A DNA stretch of 21,555 bases, taken from a virus. Made by a program: the position numbers and the translations under genes. The stretch spans positions 1 to 21,555 of the IMG/VR virus record IMGVR_UViG_3300005293_000055; one strand, written 5' to 3'. Below, one piece after another: positions 3,520 through 21,555 of the stretch. Each line of letters opens with the position of its first letter. The first letter of the stretch is position 1. The notes under the pieces were generated by a model, which worked only from the letters and a program-made list of their open reading frames with translations, was not told the DNA's origin and did no database searches.

Positions 3520-3527
3520 TATATTTG
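3520..3527 (+). promoter_or_regulatory. Promoter P3 upstream of the portal gene
   Basis: TATATTTG matches the -7 consensus. No TTTG or TTG lies at the expected -33 distance, so it may need an activator. The bases after it, TT-CCAACA and then ATAAACAA, resemble the starts at P1 and P5. Transcription would begin at about 3532-3535. Confidence 0.55.
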
Positions 3528-3533
3528 TTCCAA

Positions 3534-3621
3534 CATAAACAATTATTGTAGTGATTACAAAGATTGACCAAAATACTAATCAAAGGATTCATCGTGACAT
3601 TATTGCGATGAATCCTTTTTT
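3534..3621 (+). ncRNA. Candidate short leader RNA or sRNA between promoter P3 and terminator
   Basis: About 88 nt lie between the expected start of P3 transcripts and the end of a strong terminator. The 5' end carries CATAAACAA (3534-3542), which recurs at 16781-16789 after another promoter. A small inverted repeat ACAAT-T-ATTGT lies at 3539-3549. If the terminator works, P3 yields a free RNA; if it is read through, this is the portal operon leader. A GTG-started 27-codon frame (3551-3634) also ends in TAATG, overlapping the portal start. A run of that length is not rare by chance, so I leave it uncalled. Confidence 0.4.
3582..3621 (+). terminator. Terminator or attenuator T2 in front of portal
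   Basis: AAAGGATTCATCG (3582-3594) pairs perfectly over 13 bp with 3606-3618 around an 11-nt loop, and T3616-3621 is the T-run. It is the strongest hairpin I see in the window. It ends 12 nt before the portal ATG, so portal expression needs read-through or anti-termination. Confidence 0.75.
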
Positions 3622-3633
3622 GCTTTTATTTTA

Positions 3634-4905
3634 ATGAGCTGGATAAAAAACGGACTTATCAATTATTTAGGATTGGATTACTTAGATTCTTTAGTTACAT
3701 ACGTTAACAAAGAATTGAACGGAACAACTAACTACAATGATTATACCAGCGATACACAGAAGCTAGAACTAATATTCTCTAACCAAGCCTTATTGAAAGT
3801 ATTTGCTTTGCAATGTGATTTATTCAGCATTGGTAAAGTTTATGTGTATAAAGATGGAGTTGAATTACCAGATGATCAATTCCTAAAAATGATTAAAAAT
3901 CCTAATCCTTTTCAAATGCAATCCCAATTCCTTTGGGATGTAATGTTTTGGAACATGTTAGGAAATACTTATAATTATTGCGAATCTAAAATAGTTTCAG
4001 AAGACAATAAATTATACATTCTAGAGAATAACAAAATACAGTTTCCTGTTGAAATGGATGCTTATCGAGATAAGATAGTATTGTCTAAAACGGAATTAAA
4101 TAAGATTAAAAACTTTCAAATTGAATATACTTATGCCGATGGTAGCAATACTAGATTAAAGTGGGGTAATATTATTCACATGCCGGACTTATCAAACGGT
4201 ACAGGCAGTTGGTTTAGAGGCGGTAGCAGGATAGATGCTTTGGTTAAGATCATAAGCAATGCAGAAGCCTCTTTGGATGCTACTAATATAAATGTTCGTT
4301 ACAGTGGTAAATTCATGGTAGCAGGGCAAGCAGACCCAAACAACGTTACCCAATTACCAATGGGCGAAACTGAAAAGAAAGATATTGAAACAAAGATGAA
4401 CGGGAGCAAATCTGTTCACGCGGTTAAATCAATGATTGATATTAAGCGTTTTGTTGAAAATATAGGGGCGTTGCAATTACCCGAAATATACTTGCAGCAA
4501 TATTTTTTAATAGGTTCTTTGTATAATATTCCTAAAGACGTTTTAGAAGCATACAACTCAGGAACGTATGAAAACCAAGAGAAAGCAAGAGGGGCTTTTG
4601 TTTCTTACTGTTTACAGCCTAAAGGCGATTTATTCTTTCAAGGGCATTCTAAGTTTTTTGGATATTCAGATGAAGGAAAGGATATTGTAATGGATTGGGA
4701 GCATTTACCATTCATGCAGGTTTTTGCAAAAGAAAGAGCCGATACTGACAAGGTAAAATCTGAAACATTGCTTAATTACATGAAAGCTGGGGTTAATATA
4801 GATGAGATAAACAACTGCATGGATACTAATTTTACTGAATTAAATTATGAATCAGCACAACGAACAAACCAAAACGGAAATAGTCAAACAAATACTGGAA
4901 ACTAG
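3634..4905 (+). CDS. Portal protein, 423 aa
   Basis: Forms the dodecameric ring at one capsid vertex through which DNA enters and leaves. The order TerL - portal - protease - capsid and the motifs fit the HK97-type portal family: NPNPFQMQSQFLWDVMFWNM followed by LGNTYNY at about residues 89-115, and IIHMPDLSNGTGSWFRGGSR at about 180-200. A helical core then runs to PEIYLQQYFLIGSLYNIPKDVLEAYNSG. Length is typical. The C-terminal tail is low-complexity Asn/Gln/Thr. Its last 59 bases overlap a 41-residue gene in another frame. ATG 3634 is chosen because it begins right after T2 and gives the usual N-terminus (MSWIKNGL). Confidence 0.9.
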   Translation: MSWIKNGLINYLGLDYLDSLVTYVNKELNGTTNYNDYTSDTQKLELIFSNQALLKVFALQCDLFSIGKVYVYKDGVELPDDQFLKMIKNPNPFQMQSQFLWDVMFWNMLGNTYNYCESKIVSEDNKLYILENNKIQFPVEMDAYRDKIVLSKTELNKIKNFQIEYTYADGSNTRLKWGNIIHMPDLSNGTGSWFRGGSRIDALVKIISNAEASLDATNINVRYSGKFMVAGQADPNNVTQLPMGETEKKDIETKMNGSKSVHAVKSMIDIKRFVENIGALQLPEIYLQQYFLIGSLYNIPKDVLEAYNSGTYENQEKARGAFVSYCLQPKGDLFFQGHSKFFGYSDEGKDIVMDWEHLPFMQVFAKERADTDKVKSETLLNYMKAGVNIDEINNCMDTNFTELNYESAQRTNQNGNSQTNTGN

Positions 4906-8625: not shown

Positions 8626-8799
8626 AAAGATAAAAAAGAATATAAGGAATATTTAGAGCTTCCAGAAAAGGAATTGCCTAAATCATTCAAAGTACTAAAA
8701 GAGTTTACTCTTGATAGACTTTACAAAGCGGGTAATTCAATTGAATTGCTAAATGGAGAAACAAAAGATATATTAATCTCTAATAAATTTATAAAATAA
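8611..8799 (+). CDS. Small charged unknown protein, 62 aa
   Basis: MALEDKDKKEYKEYLELPEK opens a highly charged chain, continuing KSFKVLKEFTLDRLYKAGNSIELLNGETKDILISNKFIK. The second half reads like a small beta domain (a KAGNSIELLNGE.. turn, as in short SH3-like modules). Its stop and the next start share a base (TAATG, 8797-8801). The first 16 bases are identical to those of the major tail gene. It has the place of a minor tail or neck protein, but I do not recognise it. Confidence 0.6.
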   Translation: MALEDKDKKEYKEYLELPEKELPKSFKVLKEFTLDRLYKAGNSIELLNGETKDILISNKFIK

Positions 8800-14171: not shown

Positions 14172-16754
14172 ATGAAATTTCAATTAGACTTTAAAAGTGA
14201 CGATTTCGGGAAGAAAACAATAGATGAACCTTTCGGGCTTGATGCAATTTCTTTTTCCTTAAAACAGAAGGAAAATGGCATGGCTAGAGATATATCATTA
14301 ACAGGTGGCGAAGCAATGTTCGAGTTTACACACATGAGAAATCACGAACTTAAACAATTACTTTACTATCATAGAAAGTTTGGGTATGAAGCATTAGTTA
14401 ATCTAATAATAGAAATAGACGAAAACAATAAATTCGTTTGTGAACTAGATTTTGCAAACTCAGAAACTGATGATTTAGAGTATTTTAAATGCAAAGGAAT
14501 ACAACAGGGAGTTTTTCAAGTTTTAAAGCGTAGAAATGAAGCAAAAGTAGATGTAAAGAGCGATTCTGATTTAGATGGAAACTTTATAGGCGGGTTAGTT
14601 CCTGATAATATGCTTTTATTAGCTAAGCCTGTACTTCAAATAAGTGAATTAAAACAAAGTGTAACAAACGGAGGTACATTTAATGGTTATGGTCAGGACG
14701 CAATGTTTTTTTCTATCGCTGATACTATAGTGACTTATGATATAGAAAATACATATGTTCCATTTAATAAAAGCACTTTATTACCCCCTAAATATTCAAA
14801 TGAACAATATAAGGAAGCTGTTAATTTAAATACAATAGTAGAAGCTAAAAGCAATCTTAATTCAGTAGTAATAAACATTAAAGGATTATCTGTAAATGTT
14901 GGAGATATTGGATTTAGCACTAGAAAAACATTATCTATTATTTATTCAAAAACTTTTGATACTAGCCAATCTACAACAATTAGATTAGAAGATACAAACG
15001 GAACATTAAGCGTTGTAAATAAAGATTATTTAGTAACTATTCCAACTATTGAAAGAGACGTTAAAATTGCTATAATTGTAACTGTTTTCCAACCTTATAC
15101 ATTACCAGCTACTAATCCAGTAAGTACATCTTCTGTTTCAATAACTTTGTCAGGGAATATTAAAATTTCAGCAGAAAGCACAGCGTATAATTCTATTTCA
15201 AGTTCGTTAAGGTTAGTTGATGTCATGCGCCAAGTTGTAAAGTCTTCATCTGGATTAGATATAAATGCGCCTAGATTTGAATTAGGAGGCGAATTTTATG
15301 ATAATAGATTATTAGATGGTAATTATCTAAGAGGTATAAATGATAAAAGTTTTTCAGTATCATTGGAAGATTTAGAAAATTCATTAACTGAAATGAAAGG
15401 CGACTGGGAAATAGGAATCGATGGTAAAATATTTTTCGGAATTGAGCAAGATTTTTATACTCAAATAGAAAGCGGTTTTTTTGATAATACCCAGTTTTCT
15501 GAGATGAACAAGACATTTAATCCTAAATACAAAGTAAATGAATTTAGATATACATATAAAAATTATCAATCATTAAAAGAAAACGAAGAGCCTAATAGTG
15601 CCGACACTATTCATGGAGAAAGTAGGTTTACATTATTTAATAAGTTAGTAGAGAATAAAAAAGAAAATAATATAGAATGGACTAGAGATGCTTTTTTAAT
15701 TGAGGAAACCCGTAAAAAAGCATTGATTATAGAGAAAAATACAGCATCTCAAAATGATGACACTTTGTTTTGTATAGACTCTATAAATACAAATCACGAT
15801 AACACATTTACAGAATCTTCACCGTTAACACATTCTTTTTCTGCATCCACTCATAGACTTACATTAACTAATGATGGCACTGTTAACTTTATTTCTCTAG
15901 GAATACAAGTGGGAAGCCAATTTATAATAGAACCTACAGATAAAAATACAGGAACATACACGGTATTTGCAGTAATTAATAATTTATTAGAACTGACAGG
16001 AACTAATTCGGGAGCAGTTGGAAACGGTACTAGATCAACAACCTATACATACACTTTAAAAGAATCTCTTGTTCCATTTACAAATTATACTGATCAGGGA
16101 TTTACTGAGACTGAAAATTTAGGCTCTGCAAACAGTTACAGCAATAGACGTTATTCAATAGCGCGTAACGTTTACAACTATTGGAAATCGTATTTAGCAA
16201 CCTGTAATTTATATTGGAAAGACAAACCTTTAAAAAACACATGGTATAAAAATAACGGTGATTATACAACTAAATATGCAGGAGTTAAACTAACAGAAAA
16301 AGCCGATTTCACACCCGACAATCCTATTTTGTCGCCAATATTATACAATGATATTGTTTTTGCAAATGTAGAGTTTGAAGACTTCATAACGCTTCAAAAT
16401 AATATTAGATCACAAAGGGGTTACATTAGGACAATCGACAATAACGAGCAAGTTATAAAGATTTATCCTGTAGATATGGAGTATAAACTATTGGAAAAAG
16501 AATTGACTATTAAAGGAGAAGAAAAGTACGAGCCTGTAGGAATGAGTATTTCTACTGAGCATAGTTATATCTTAATCAATAACCAAACAAGGATTTCATC
16601 TTTGCAATGGGAAATTAAAGGACAAAAGCTGTATTTATATGATGAGAATCGTTATAGATTGTATAATCCTGTCTTTTGGCATGAAGTTGCAATAAATAAT
16701 GCTTTTGCTGATAGCATAGAACAATTGGAATCGTGGTTAAATTTGGTTAATTAA
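14172..16754 (+). CDS. Distal tail / baseplate hub candidate, 860 aa
   Basis: Follows the tape measure, as distal-tail and tail-associated hub proteins do. The N-terminus (MKFQLDFKSDDFGKKTIDEP, then FEFTHMRNHELKQLLYYH) looks like an attachment domain to the tail tip. A long beta-rich middle with Ser/Thr/Asn repeats contains SVSITLSGNIKISAESTAYN. A second conserved-looking part has FNPKYKVNEFRYTYKNYQSL and IARNVYNYWKSYLATCNLYW. The C-terminus reads LSTEHSYIL-like and ends LESWLNLVN. No peptidase or lysozyme motif is seen. The size fits a fused Dit/Tal type protein of Bacteroidota siphoviruses. Last gene before promoter P5. Confidence 0.6.
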   Translation: MKFQLDFKSDDFGKKTIDEPFGLDAISFSLKQKENGMARDISLTGGEAMFEFTHMRNHELKQLLYYHRKFGYEALVNLIIEIDENNKFVCELDFANSETDDLEYFKCKGIQQGVFQVLKRRNEAKVDVKSDSDLDGNFIGGLVPDNMLLLAKPVLQISELKQSVTNGGTFNGYGQDAMFFSIADTIVTYDIENTYVPFNKSTLLPPKYSNEQYKEAVNLNTIVEAKSNLNSVVINIKGLSVNVGDIGFSTRKTLSIIYSKTFDTSQSTTIRLEDTNGTLSVVNKDYLVTIPTIERDVKIAIIVTVFQPYTLPATNPVSTSSVSITLSGNIKISAESTAYNSISSSLRLVDVMRQVVKSSSGLDINAPRFELGGEFYDNRLLDGNYLRGINDKSFSVSLEDLENSLTEMKGDWEIGIDGKIFFGIEQDFYTQIESGFFDNTQFSEMNKTFNPKYKVNEFRYTYKNYQSLKENEEPNSADTIHGESRFTLFNKLVENKKENNIEWTRDAFLIEETRKKALIIEKNTASQNDDTLFCIDSINTNHDNTFTESSPLTHSFSASTHRLTLTNDGTVNFISLGIQVGSQFIIEPTDKNTGTYTVFAVINNLLELTGTNSGAVGNGTRSTTYTYTLKESLVPFTNYTDQGFTETENLGSANSYSNRRYSIARNVYNYWKSYLATCNLYWKDKPLKNTWYKNNGDYTTKYAGVKLTEKADFTPDNPILSPILYNDIVFANVEFEDFITLQNNIRSQRGYIRTIDNNEQVIKIYPVDMEYKLLEKELTIKGEEKYEPVGMSISTEHSYILINNQTRISSLQWEIKGQKLYLYDENRYRLYNPVFWHEVAINNAFADSIEQLESWLNLVN

Positions 16755-16773
16755 AAAACAATAATTACATTTG
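16742..16773 (+). promoter_or_regulatory. Bacteroidota-type promoter P5
   Basis: TACATTTG at 16766-16773 is the -7 element, and TTTG at 16742-16745 is the -33 element with a 20-nt spacer. This is the best complete match in the window. The -33 element lies in the end of the preceding gene. Downstream, CATAAACAA at 16781-16789 marks the transcript start region, shared with P3. Confidence 0.75.
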
Positions 16774-16779
16774 TCTCAG

Positions 16780-16891
16780 CCATAAACAAAGTAGGTTTTG
16801 TTTATAGTTTAGATTTTGGGGAATCAAATATCATGTGAAGTTACATGAAGCCATTAATAACACTAAAGCACCTTTAAACGGGTGCTTTTTT
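16780..16891 (+). ncRNA. Candidate structured leader or small RNA with three hairpins
   Basis: About 112 nt lie from the P5 start region to terminator T4, with no ORF above about 10 codons. Three stems follow in order: ATAAACAAA/TTTGTTTAT (16782-16790 with 16797-16805, 9 bp), TCATGT/ACATGA (16831-16836 with 16843-16848, 6 bp) and the terminator. The 5' stem contains the CATAAACAA box shared with the RNA at 3534. It could be a free small RNA or an attenuator for the Cys-rich gene at 16906. Structure is read by eye, not computed. Confidence 0.5.
16865..16891 (+). terminator. Rho-independent terminator T4
   Basis: AAAGCACC (16865-16872) pairs with GGTGCTTT (16881-16888), loop TTTAAACG, T-run 16886-16891. 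It lies only 14 nt before ATG 16906 and no promoter fits between, so the gene at 16906 depends on read-through. Confidence 0.85.
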
Positions 16892-16905
16892 AATTTATAG
16901 AAATT

Positions 16906-17604
16906 ATGGAAAAAGAATGTGCATGCAAGAAGCTAATCAAAGACGATAAAGTTACATTAATAACTGAATGTAATGTTTGCAAAAAGAATCGGAGAAAAGA
17001 CTTAAATTTACTTATTGAATTATGCAAAACAGTATCGGATATTGTAAAAAAACCTGTTCCACAATATAATAAAACAGTTATTTCTACCTTCGAAAGAATA
17101 AAAGAAGCTGTAGAGTCAGAAAATTTATTTGTAGTAAATGAATCTAGAGAAAAAATAAAGATTAGATTATCTCATACGTCAGGAGACGATGTAGTATTTA
17201 AACACGTTCCTGAGCATAAAGAAAAAGATAATCATTTAGAGGACGCTTTAGGCTATATATGTCCTAAATTCTTTGAAAAATTAACACCTACAATAGACGA
17301 TATTTCTTACGCAATTAAAAAAGAATTGGAAGAACAATACTCAGGAACTATAATAAACGACGAAACAAGAGCGTTAATGTGCTTTGATGGATTAATATCT
17401 AAAATACCGAAAGGATGGTCAATTTTTCATTTTAAGAAAGCAGAACTTGTTAATAATGAAGATAAGAAATGTAATTGCTGGACATTAAAAAAACATACTA
17501 AATTAAATGGCAATATAGGCGTTTTCCCTGACTACAATCATTCGTTTGATTTAATAGATTTTTATAAATGTATTCAATGCGAAAAAGAATATTATTTTAA
17601 ATAA
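16906..17604 (+). CDS. Cys-rich putative zinc-binding protein, 232 aa, moron-like
   Basis: Both ends carry a CxC plus CxxC set: Cys5, Cys7, Cys22 and Cys25 at the N-terminus (ECACKKL..., CNVCKKNRR), and Cys189, Cys191, Cys222 and Cys225 at the C-terminus (KCNCWTLKK..., KCIQCEKEYYF). Each set could hold one zinc ion. The centre is charged and helical (LLIELCKTVSDIVKK; DDISYAIKKELEEQY). No signal peptide or membrane span. It sits between the tail hub and baseplate genes but is bracketed by T4 upstream and T5 downstream, the usual layout of an inserted accessory gene. It might bind nucleic acid or a host protein, or be a metal-stabilised tail part. I do not recognise the family. Confidence 0.65.
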   Translation: MEKECACKKLIKDDKVTLITECNVCKKNRRKDLNLLIELCKTVSDIVKKPVPQYNKTVISTFERIKEAVESENLFVVNESREKIKIRLSHTSGDDVVFKHVPEHKEKDNHLEDALGYICPKFFEKLTPTIDDISYAIKKELEEQYSGTIINDETRALMCFDGLISKIPKGWSIFHFKKAELVNNEDKKCNCWTLKKHTKLNGNIGVFPDYNHSFDLIDFYKCIQCEKEYYFK

Positions 17605-17658
17605 TCAAATATGGAAACTTTCTAATACATTTACAAAACTCAATTAGCTTATTTTTTT

Positions 17659-17694
17659 ACTCCAATTCATTTTTATAATGGTTGGAGTTTTTTT
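17659..17694 (+). terminator. Probable terminator T5
   Basis: ACTCCAA (17659-17665) pairs with TTGGAGT (17682-17688) around a 16-nt loop, and a run of seven T follows (17688-17694). It is 55 nt after the Cys-rich gene. The loop and 3' arm hold ATG 17678 of a possible small ORF, so the hairpin could also hide that start. Confidence 0.65.
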
Positions 17695-17806
17695 ATTATA
17701 TTTGCTTGTGAAAAGATTTGCTAACTTAGCTGAGTGCATTTCTTCTAAAATAGAAATGGATAGTAAGAGACTATCGGAATCTTTTTTTAATCCAACGTTG
17801 AGATAA
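17678..17806 (+). CDS. Possible small membrane protein, 42 aa (overlaps terminator and promoter)
   Basis: ATG 17678 opens MVGVFLLYLLVKRFANLAEC, ISSKIEMDSKRLSESFFNPTLR, stopping at TAA 17804-17806, 9 nt before the next gene. It has a short hydrophobic N-terminus of about 10 residues, then an amphipathic, charged helix. Against it, the first third is also the arm of terminator T5 plus the -7 element of promoter P6, and the later part folds into hairpins. From P6 only a near-leaderless GTG at 17708 (32 residues) could be used. I treat it as an open alternative to a non-coding leader. Confidence 0.35.
   Translation: MVGVFLLYLLVKRFANLAECISSKIEMDSKRLSESFFNPTLR
17697..17704 (+). promoter_or_regulatory. 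Possible promoter P6 for baseplate and fibre genes
   Basis: TATATTTG matches the -7 element and begins 2 nt after the T-run of T5, the same terminator-then-promoter layout as T3/P4. No good -33 match lies at the right distance. The following 110 nt contain inverted repeats at 17737-17758 (7 bp) and 17759-17775 (GATAGT/ACTATC). Confidence 0.45.
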
Positions 17807-17815
17807 CAGGGGAAT

Positions 17816-19202: not shown

Positions 19203-21555
19203 GCTTAGTAATAACAAAGCAAACAGGGAATTTTTTTAGTCTAGTTTTAGACGGTGGAGAGCCTATAATATCAGAACAAAATAGACTTACCACTATTGGT
19301 GATTTATGTAATTTTAAAACTGCCAATGGTGCTAATTTAGTTCTAAAGCAAAATATTCCTTTTTCAGATGTTACGGTTGTAGCAAGTGGTACTTTTACTT
19401 TTGCTTCTGTTGATTCATTATGGGATAAGTTAATTGAAATTGGGTTCTTTGATGGCACTGCTATAATTCCTCCAGGAACAATAGTTAGATTTGATCAATT
19501 ACAAGATACATTTGATTATTTCGGTAGGGATGGACAGGTAGTAATAGTTAATGAATCTGAATTAAAATTAGAGACACAATCTATTGCTTTTTTATCACCA
19601 GAAGATAAAATAAAAATTGATGGAATTGAAGCAGGAGCTCAGAAAAATGTTCAATCAGATTGGAACGAGAGTAATCCTGATGTAGATTCTTTTATAAAAA
19701 ACAAACCCGCTATAATTGCAGATGCTGAGATAATATCCAACAAGCAAGACAATATGGATGTTGATGGTACGGGTCAAAAATACCCTACTGTTGATGCGGT
19801 AAATGATTTAACTAATACTATTGCACGTGCTACAATGGCGGTTGGTTTTATAGATACAACTGATAGCTTTGTATTATCTGTTGTAAATTCAACTACATTA
19901 GGCGTAGGAGCTTCTCAATATGGGATAGTATTTCCTGAGCATTTTAAAACTACACCATACGCTCCCGAAACAGGGATAAAGTTTTTGACAGCTAGAAACA
20001 TAGCACTGCCTATTTTCTCAGGGACAGGAACAGCGGTTAAATATGTAGGATGGAGAGAATCGGATGATACTATTTTATTCAGCAATGATCCTTATATTCA
20101 AAATATAGACATTTGTCAATTAGGTTTAGTTTTTATTAAATGGTCTGCGGGGGTAACATCATTTTTAGATGCTACAAGAGACGTTTTAACAGTTCCTGAT
20201 ATATCTGCTTATTCTAATCTTGAAACTGTAGGAATAGGCATTAAAAGCGATGTTATTGTAGGTCATACAGGATCAGGAATGACTATTAAAAATACAGCGG
20301 GAAGCGTTAAGGGTATTTCTGTAAATTGGCATGGTACAAATAATGATTTTAGAAATGTTACATCTGCTAATCCTTCTAATTTTCAAATATTAAGCCCTGC
20401 AAATAATCTAACTGCAACACCTCCAGCAATTACGACTACAGTTGTAGTAAGTAATTATTTTAACGGAACTGCAATTGTTCCAATACCAGCAGCTAACAAT
20501 GCAGCAGTACATGCTATATTATTGACAATAAGAGGCACTATAGTTATACAAGTAGCTGAACAATTCTTTGCTGATTTTCAGTCCGCAAAAGATAACGCTG
20601 CAACTGTTGTATTTTCAAATGTGCTTCCAATTGGTACTTATGTTGAAATAGGCAGATTAGTTAGTAAAAAAAGCACAACTAATTTAGCCAATAATGTCGA
20701 TGCTGTATTTATAAGCGGTGGTGGTAGTGGAGGCGGATCTGCTTCGGGCACTACAGATTTACAAGGTGCTTATAACGCTTCTGTAATTCCTCAGATTTTA
20801 ACATCTACATCTTTAGGAGCAGTAACAATAAAACGAGGCTCAGCAGCCGATACAGATGACATTTTAGTTGGGCAAAATGGGGCGGGGACTACTACATCTG
20901 GCTTAGATGGATCTGGTTTTTTTAAGGCTAAAAAAATAAGAGTAGGTAGCGGCCCAGGAAGTTCAGGTCTTAACTTTGAAGTTCTTGGCGTTTCCGGAGA
21001 AAATTTATATTGTTATGTTAGCAATGGCGATAACAATTGTTTTTTAGGCGTCAACGGAACAGGCCCATTAATGGGTACATTTTCATCTAAGTTAGATATG
21101 TATGTAGGGTCAGGTACAAAAGCTAGGGTATATAATACAGGAAATTTTGTTTTGCAAAACGGGGGCACATTCTCAGATAACGGAGTCGATAGATTACAAG
21201 TAGGAGGAACAGTTTTATCTACAGGTTTTAAAGTGACAGGAACGACAGGTTTTTTAAAATCTGATGGTACTGTTGATATAAGTGGCATTACTTTACCTCC
21301 TAATCCTGTTGGTTCTACTACTTACGGTATATCACAAGTAATTGGTGGTAGTGATTCATGGCAGATATTCGGAGAAGCTTCTGTTATAGATCAGGGTAAA
21401 ATGGTGTTTCAAGTAAATGACAATGGTTTGCCGATAGCTTCGGGTGGGCAATCTTTCGAGTTTAGATACTCGGCCGGTTCGTCAGGAGTAGCAAAAACCC
21501 CATTAATAGTAGATTACAATGATATAACAGCATTAACCAATTTTAAAGCTAGTGG
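19199..21555 (+). CDS. Long tail fibre / receptor-binding protein, 3' truncated by window, at least 785 aa
   Basis: The frame stays open from ATG 19199 (overlapping the collar gene's stop) to the last base, so the gene continues beyond the window. Near residues 138-170 it has KIDGIEAGAQKN followed by VQSDWNESNPDVDSFIKNKP, motifs that recur in tail fibres, the second typical of Bacteroidota phages. VDGTGQKYPTVDAVNDL follows. Near 505-515 a Gly/Ser linker (SGGGSGGGSASG) leads to LQGAYNASVIPQIL, then repetitive Gly/Thr/Asn/Val strands, as in a beta-helical shaft. The C-terminal tip, perhaps with a self-cleaving chaperone domain, is not in the window. It should determine host binding. Confidence 0.8.
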   Translation, partial: MSLVITKQTGNFFSLVLDGGEPIISEQNRLTTIGDLCNFKTANGANLVLKQNIPFSDVTVVASGTFTFASVDSLWDKLIEIGFFDGTAIIPPGTIVRFDQLQDTFDYFGRDGQVVIVNESELKLETQSIAFLSPEDKIKIDGIEAGAQKNVQSDWNESNPDVDSFIKNKPAIIADAEIISNKQDNMDVDGTGQKYPTVDAVNDLTNTIARATMAVGFIDTTDSFVLSVVNSTTLGVGASQYGIVFPEHFKTTPYAPETGIKFLTARNIALPIFSGTGTAVKYVGWRESDDTILFSNDPYIQNIDICQLGLVFIKWSAGVTSFLDATRDVLTVPDISAYSNLETVGIGIKSDVIVGHTGSGMTIKNTAGSVKGISVNWHGTNNDFRNVTSANPSNFQILSPANNLTATPPAITTTVVVSNYFNGTAIVPIPAANNAAVHAILLTIRGTIVIQVAEQFFADFQSAKDNAATVVFSNVLPIGTYVEIGRLVSKKSTTNLANNVDAVFISGGGSGGGSASGTTDLQGAYNASVIPQILTSTSLGAVTIKRGSAADTDDILVGQNGAGTTTSGLDGSGFFKAKKIRVGSGPGSSGLNFEVLGVSGENLYCYVSNGDNNCFLGVNGTGPLMGTFSSKLDMYVGSGTKARVYNTGNFVLQNGGTFSDNGVDRLQVGGTVLSTGFKVTGTTGFLKSDGTVDISGITLPPNPVGSTTYGISQVIGGSDSWQIFGEASVIDQGKMVFQVNDNGLPIASGGQSFEFRYSAGSSGVAKTPLIVDYNDITALTNFKAS

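Follow-up and report, generated by a model that had tools for sequence, protein, structure and literature searches.

The late switch of phage lambda (pR'-6S RNA-tR', controlled by Q antitermination) consists of a promoter, a short terminated leader RNA and a terminator placed before phage genes. The leader analysed here, at positions 16766-16905 of a 21,555-nt stretch of viral DNA (IMG/VR record IMGVR_UViG_3300005293_000055, positions 1 to 21,555; hereafter the window), resembles it in having a promoter, a short leader predicted to be terminated and a terminator ahead of a phage gene. However, Q acts through DNA, whereas the family to which this leader belongs carries a conserved RNA hairpin (H1) in a shorter leader, with the terminator abutting a head or accessory gene. 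The nut/boxB site of lambda, like H1, forms a small hairpin in the nascent RNA, its loop rich in purines, but it has a pentaloop, whereas H1 has a hexaloop, comes without boxA (a boxA-like GCTCTT is present in 2 of the 52 leaders among the matches listed) and was found with no N-like gene. GCTCTTA, also boxA-like, lies between H1 and the terminator in two Bacteroides phage leaders only, L083 and L154. The put element of HK022 is likewise a cis-acting phage hairpin that follows soon after a promoter and lies upstream of terminators, but it spans ~70 nt with two stem-loops (PMC9378689), whereas H1 is a single hairpin of 18-22 nt with a GAAGNN loop. Leader-peptide attenuators (trp type, tna) share with the H1 leaders a short ORF entering a terminator just before a gene; by contrast, no regulatory codon run was seen here, the leader at 16766-16905 forms no alternative antiterminator helix, and H1 leaders precede phage genes and carry the extra conserved H1. 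Finally, conAn of conjugative plasmids is also an RNA element that stands where a mobile-element operon begins and acts together with terminators, but it has a protein partner and acts over a long distance (PMC8955417), and no such partner was found for the H1 leaders.

The window carries terminase, portal, major head protein, tape-measure and tail genes, and its named-phage relatives infect Flavobacterium, Olleya, Cellulophaga and Tenacibaculum, so Bacteroidota-type host signals are to be expected in it. The -7 element of the primary Flavobacterium promoter is TAHHTTTG, with its G at -5 (PMC6847099). By pattern, a promoter of this type lies on the + strand at 16742-16773 (TTTG at 16742-16745, a 20-nt spacer and TACATTTG at 16766-16773), which places the predicted transcription start at ~16778. 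The window holds two copies of the full pattern where 0.88 would be expected, which is not significant alone; the support for this promoter is therefore its conservation in relatives, including the closest related leader, L217.

Folding of the RNA downstream (16774-16905) gave -28.9 kcal/mol, compared to -19.9±3.0 for shuffled sequences (z = -2.96), with none of 200 shuffles equally stable. The fold begins with a 5' hairpin, H0, whose 9-bp core pairs ATAAACAAA (16782-16790) with TTTGTTTAT (16797-16805) and which only this leader and L217 carry. Next come a weak third hairpin (16815-16828) and then H1, the latter a 6-bp stem (UCAUGU-GAAGUU-ACAUGA, 16831-16836/16843-16848) that was recovered by fold, pattern, covariation and model match and has the UGU-GAAGNN-RCA signature of the family. 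After a further 16 nt comes an intrinsic terminator of 9 pairs (AAAGCACC..GGGTGCTTT, stem 16865-16888) with a U tract to 16891, which is kept in related leaders; ATG 16906 lies 14 nt past the U tract and 17 nt past the stem, within the ~30 nt that define the family. From H1 it is ~53 nt back to the predicted 5' end and 57 nt on to the ATG. H1 is separated by 57 nt from the TANNTTTG promoter, a spacing otherwise seen in L217 and compared to 3-16 nt in other family leaders, because of the additional hairpin H0. Thus the promoter, the 9-bp and 6-bp stems and the terminator 14 nt before ATG 16906 that the earlier note had read from the letters were all recovered by pattern and fold, and are conserved in L217. 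Its statement that there is no real ORF holds only in part: a possible leader ORF of 21 codons with a GTG start inside H1 (16835-16900, + strand) crosses the terminator and stops 5 nt before ATG 16906, and a second short frame with an ATG start (16845-16877) stops inside the terminator loop. The GTG frame is also open in L217, although it is not universal among the leaders most similar to this one.

We collected the family by scanning IMG/VR for TATATTTG followed by UGUGAAGNNRCA, which returned at least 120 contigs, mostly metagenomic; as the scan demands both TATATTTG and GAAG, it under-represents members whose promoter box or loop differs. Stem lengths among the matches listed had two peaks (24 matches at 3 bp and 80 at 6-8 bp), so that real members can be separated from chance matches, and across 78 non-redundant places among those matches the three outer pairs, which the pattern leaves free, were paired in 64, 64 and 61 cases, compared to 37, 33 and 31 in shuffles. 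The resulting H1 consensus is a hairpin of 18-22 nt with UGU-GAAGNN-RCA on a 6-8 bp stem, in which the stem varies and the GAAG loop, itself part of the search pattern, is invariant. At least 52 non-redundant H1 loci lie downstream of TATATTTG in IMG/VR contigs. Among the matches listed, 34 of 52 have the order promoter, H1, terminator, ATG, with the terminator 13-47 nt after H1 and the ATG 8-28 nt past the terminator; the same scan detected no terminator in the other 18, a few of which are on contigs that are cut off. The genes that follow H1 leaders among these matches are mostly portal or head-protease genes, and those tested fall into different families (Phage_portal and SPP1_portal for portals, XkdF/S78_2 and S49 for head proteases).

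When 33 leaders from the matches listed were aligned, 96.6% of cells in the H1 and terminator stems were paired, compared to 72% in shuffles, and two-sided changes occurred in 14 of 18 pairs (152 cells versus 39 in shuffles, with slid controls collapsing). Compensatory changes, whose absence among homologous loci the earlier note had named as grounds for giving up the RNA, are therefore abundant in both stems. A covariance model built from these leaders without the window sequences, for which E-values are rough, gave its two highest scores within the window to 3520-3636 (50.6 bits) and to 16810-16906 (39.6 bits). A further match at 2237-2354 is coding sequence at the start of terL and was not counted. 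The first terL codons also hold a terminator-like inverted repeat (CCCTGTTACG..AGCAGGGTTTTT, 2312-2345) that is largely kept in close relatives and could be explained by coding constraint.

The higher-scoring site is a second H1-family leader on the + strand, before the portal gene, with the same order of elements: a TATATTTG promoter (3520-3527), an H1-like hairpin (3546-3560), a terminator (3582-3618) and a leader ORF (3551-3634) that overlaps the portal ATG at 3634. Some relatives have promoter, leader, terminator and ATG before the portal gene, and others a bare promoter adjoining the ATG. A frameshift fusion of leader ORF and portal, considered because U UUU UUA is present, was rejected since the stop and start frames vary among relatives.

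A second pattern search, for leaders with a GCACC..GGTGCTTTTTTAATTTATA terminator and with the addition of L113 and L015, gave nine loci including 16766-16905. Each precedes a small gene of its own (50-232 aa), and the products of these genes show no detectable similarity to one another. H1 covaries modestly here too (eight sequences); some of these leaders have no recognisable promoter, and about three of the nine have no suitable leader ORF. L217 and the window share a 160-bp block of 89% identity that opens shortly before the -7 box, ends precisely at the ATG and goes no further, and the flanking genes differ, which indicates that the -7 box, H0, H1, the terminator and the start codon move together as a single cassette. 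On these comparative grounds, 16766-16905 is a real and evolutionarily conserved element, a predicted leader RNA that runs into a terminator before a gene.

That gene (16906-17604, + strand) encodes a 232-aa Cys-containing protein for which no relatives were found. It is absent from the homologous site in 16 relatives with readable sequence after the tail gene, and is thus an insertion of the moron kind; most of these relatives have a TATATTTG promoter at the site, usually leading to a homologue of gene 17816. In the window, a terminator and a TATATTTG promoter lie downstream of the Cys-containing gene, at ~17658-17704, ahead of gene 17816, an arrangement common to relatives. The leader therefore probably serves the Cys-containing gene alone, and the suggestion in the earlier note that it might also control the distal tail genes is not borne out. 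A different, small hairpin occurs after TATATTTG shortly before late-gene start codons, in the window at 17790-17815 and in L003-L007, L011, L013, L015, L017, L026, L031 and L035. Its loops are of the GUGA, GAGAU, GAUGAU or GUAA type (e.g. AUGUU-GUGA-AACAU), and it is sometimes followed by an AGGGG or AGGAG Shine-Dalgarno-like stretch, unusual for the phylum.

We consider it somewhat more probable than not that 16766-16905 is a leader that acts in cis as an attenuator and belongs to a phage RNA family not described before, with translation of a leader ORF as the likely trigger. Transcription would start at the TANNTTTG promoter, H1 would be made, and the polymerase would meet the intrinsic terminator immediately before the gene. 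By default it would terminate, releasing a predicted ~115-nt RNA, and the gene would be made only upon read-through. There is no + strand TANNTTTG promoter between 16774 and 16906, so any transcript of the gene has to pass the terminator, whether begun at 16778 or further upstream, and the conserved terminator directly before it is best explained as conditional. Forbidding the terminator in the fold (at a cost of 11.7 kcal/mol) produced no competing helix; an alternative antiterminator pairing was thus rejected, and something outside the leader must supply the condition, be it a ribosome, a protein or a modified polymerase. The likely trigger is a ribosome translating a short leader ORF that begins within H1 or directly behind it and extends into the terminator, and H1, perhaps protein-bound, may set that translation. 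In 28 of the 34 family leaders among the matches listed, a leader ORF extends as far as the terminator (14.5 on average and 25 at most in shuffles), many of these frames stopping inside it, and 6 of 34 have no suitable ORF; in the portal family of the window the count is 13 of 13, versus 7.6 in shuffles, and the ORF stop abuts or overlaps the portal ATG in 12 of 13. These sequences are related, so the counts overstate their independence. The GTG in the H1 loop was rejected as a universal start codon, as several members read GTG AAG TAG. A translation-coupled trigger is the likeliest reading, supported for the head-gene leaders and weaker for the copy at 16766-16905.

The second-ranked explanation, which we regard as unlikely, is that H1 is a processive antitermination signal (put/nut-like), the terminator blocking only unmodified polymerase and the leader ORFs being incidental. 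It would account for the position of H1 straight after the promoter among most members listed (transcript positions 0-13, median 6.5), for a constant GAAG loop on a varying stem, as expected of a factor- or polymerase-binding site (with the caveat that the loop was searched for), for the presence of about one H1 per phage genome and for H1 at gene starts without a terminator. However, the operons of these phages close with additional terminators, behind which new promoters take over, and a processive system would override such ends; neither the leaders, 50 of 52 of which lack the boxA-like motif among the matches listed, nor the two-stem put RNA of PMC9378689, which H1 does not resemble, point in this direction. 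In addition, no shared candidate regulator gene (N- or Q-like) was found among 17 H1-bearing contigs, a search that would miss a diverged Q. We rank translation-coupled attenuation first, and the general description as a regulated attenuator leader is safer than either mechanism.

Rather improbable is the proposal that H1 is a 5'-end mRNA stabiliser or translation-start element beside a merely leaky terminator. H1 does start no more than 13 nt from the predicted 5' end in most members listed, and in seven terminator-less loci among these matches it lies 7-22 nt before the gene, indicating that H1 has a use without a terminator; yet in the window it stands far from both the 5' end and the ATG and is retained beside the terminator all the same. 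Least probable, by a little, is that the predicted ~115-nt terminated RNA is itself the product of a small RNA gene, for which its own promoter, terminator and stable folds speak, as do intergenic promoter-RNA-terminator units followed by a new promoter at the same site in relatives L004-L007, but a free small RNA gene would not need H1-family terminators placed 8-28 nt before a start codon, nor a conserved block that ends at ATG 16906 with no other promoter before it. Of the two options left standing in the earlier note, a phage small RNA or an attenuation/antitermination leader, the second is thus favoured, because the promoter-to-ATG unit ends at a start codon, precedes unrelated genes and has counterparts before head genes in relatives; a terminated RNA of ~115 nt would be expected under both options.

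Searches of Rfam 15, in gathering and E-value modes, returned nothing credible and no family above the gathering cut-off, and a DNA search of named phages and plasmids gave only short chance-level matches, mainly to the terminator. The leader is absent from the named isolates P12024L, P12024S and Harreka_1, and the portal gene of stinky9-1 has no H1 leader, being preceded by a promoter and a GUGA hairpin without a terminator. H1 was rejected as a host-chromosome element, as only 3 of 301 genomes of Bacteroidaceae and 2 of 395 of Bacteroidia carry it; in phage records, chosen for having H1, there is about one per record (36 matches versus 2 for the reversed pattern). H1 leaders with terminators were also seen in Bacteroides, Prevotella and Phocaeicola phages or prophages (L232, L260, L257, L187 and L258), before genes that, judged by eye, are scaffold-like, tail, holin-like and Rha-like; the family thus spans the phylum. 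Another leader-like RNA follows TATATTTG in L223 (G012, 8670-8791, - strand), L224 (G023, 19917-20038, + strand) and L228 (stinky9-1, MN812238, 13580-13704), where a long-range stem with ends of the GTGAGAAGC type and the terminator-like sequence AATCC..GGGATTTTT precede a small protein of 70-78 aa, two of which have a C-terminal LDKSTSIKFAKTIRTEINKI-like end and that of stinky9-1 a variant. By its features this RNA seems to be a further conserved one of Flavobacterium phages, also undescribed.

We found no papers on the timing of structural genes in Bacteroidota phages in the open-licence literature. A bolder and tentative idea, to which we give perhaps one chance in a few, is that the GAAG-loop hairpin serves the phages of Bacteroidota throughout the phylum as an antitermination device, which the host polymerase or a host factor would read; it would gate head genes and have been copied as a promoter-hairpin-terminator cassette before accessory genes. 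The strong covariation of an unnamed RNA at the head genes of divergent Bacteroidota phages, whose portal and protease families differ, suggests that these phages have a step of control in common. As far as sequence comparison can tell, the occurrence of one RNA family mostly before head genes in many Bacteroidota viruses suggests a shared on/off switch for phage genes, and the H1 leader may become useful as a novel regulatory part in a phylum for which genetic tools are scarce.
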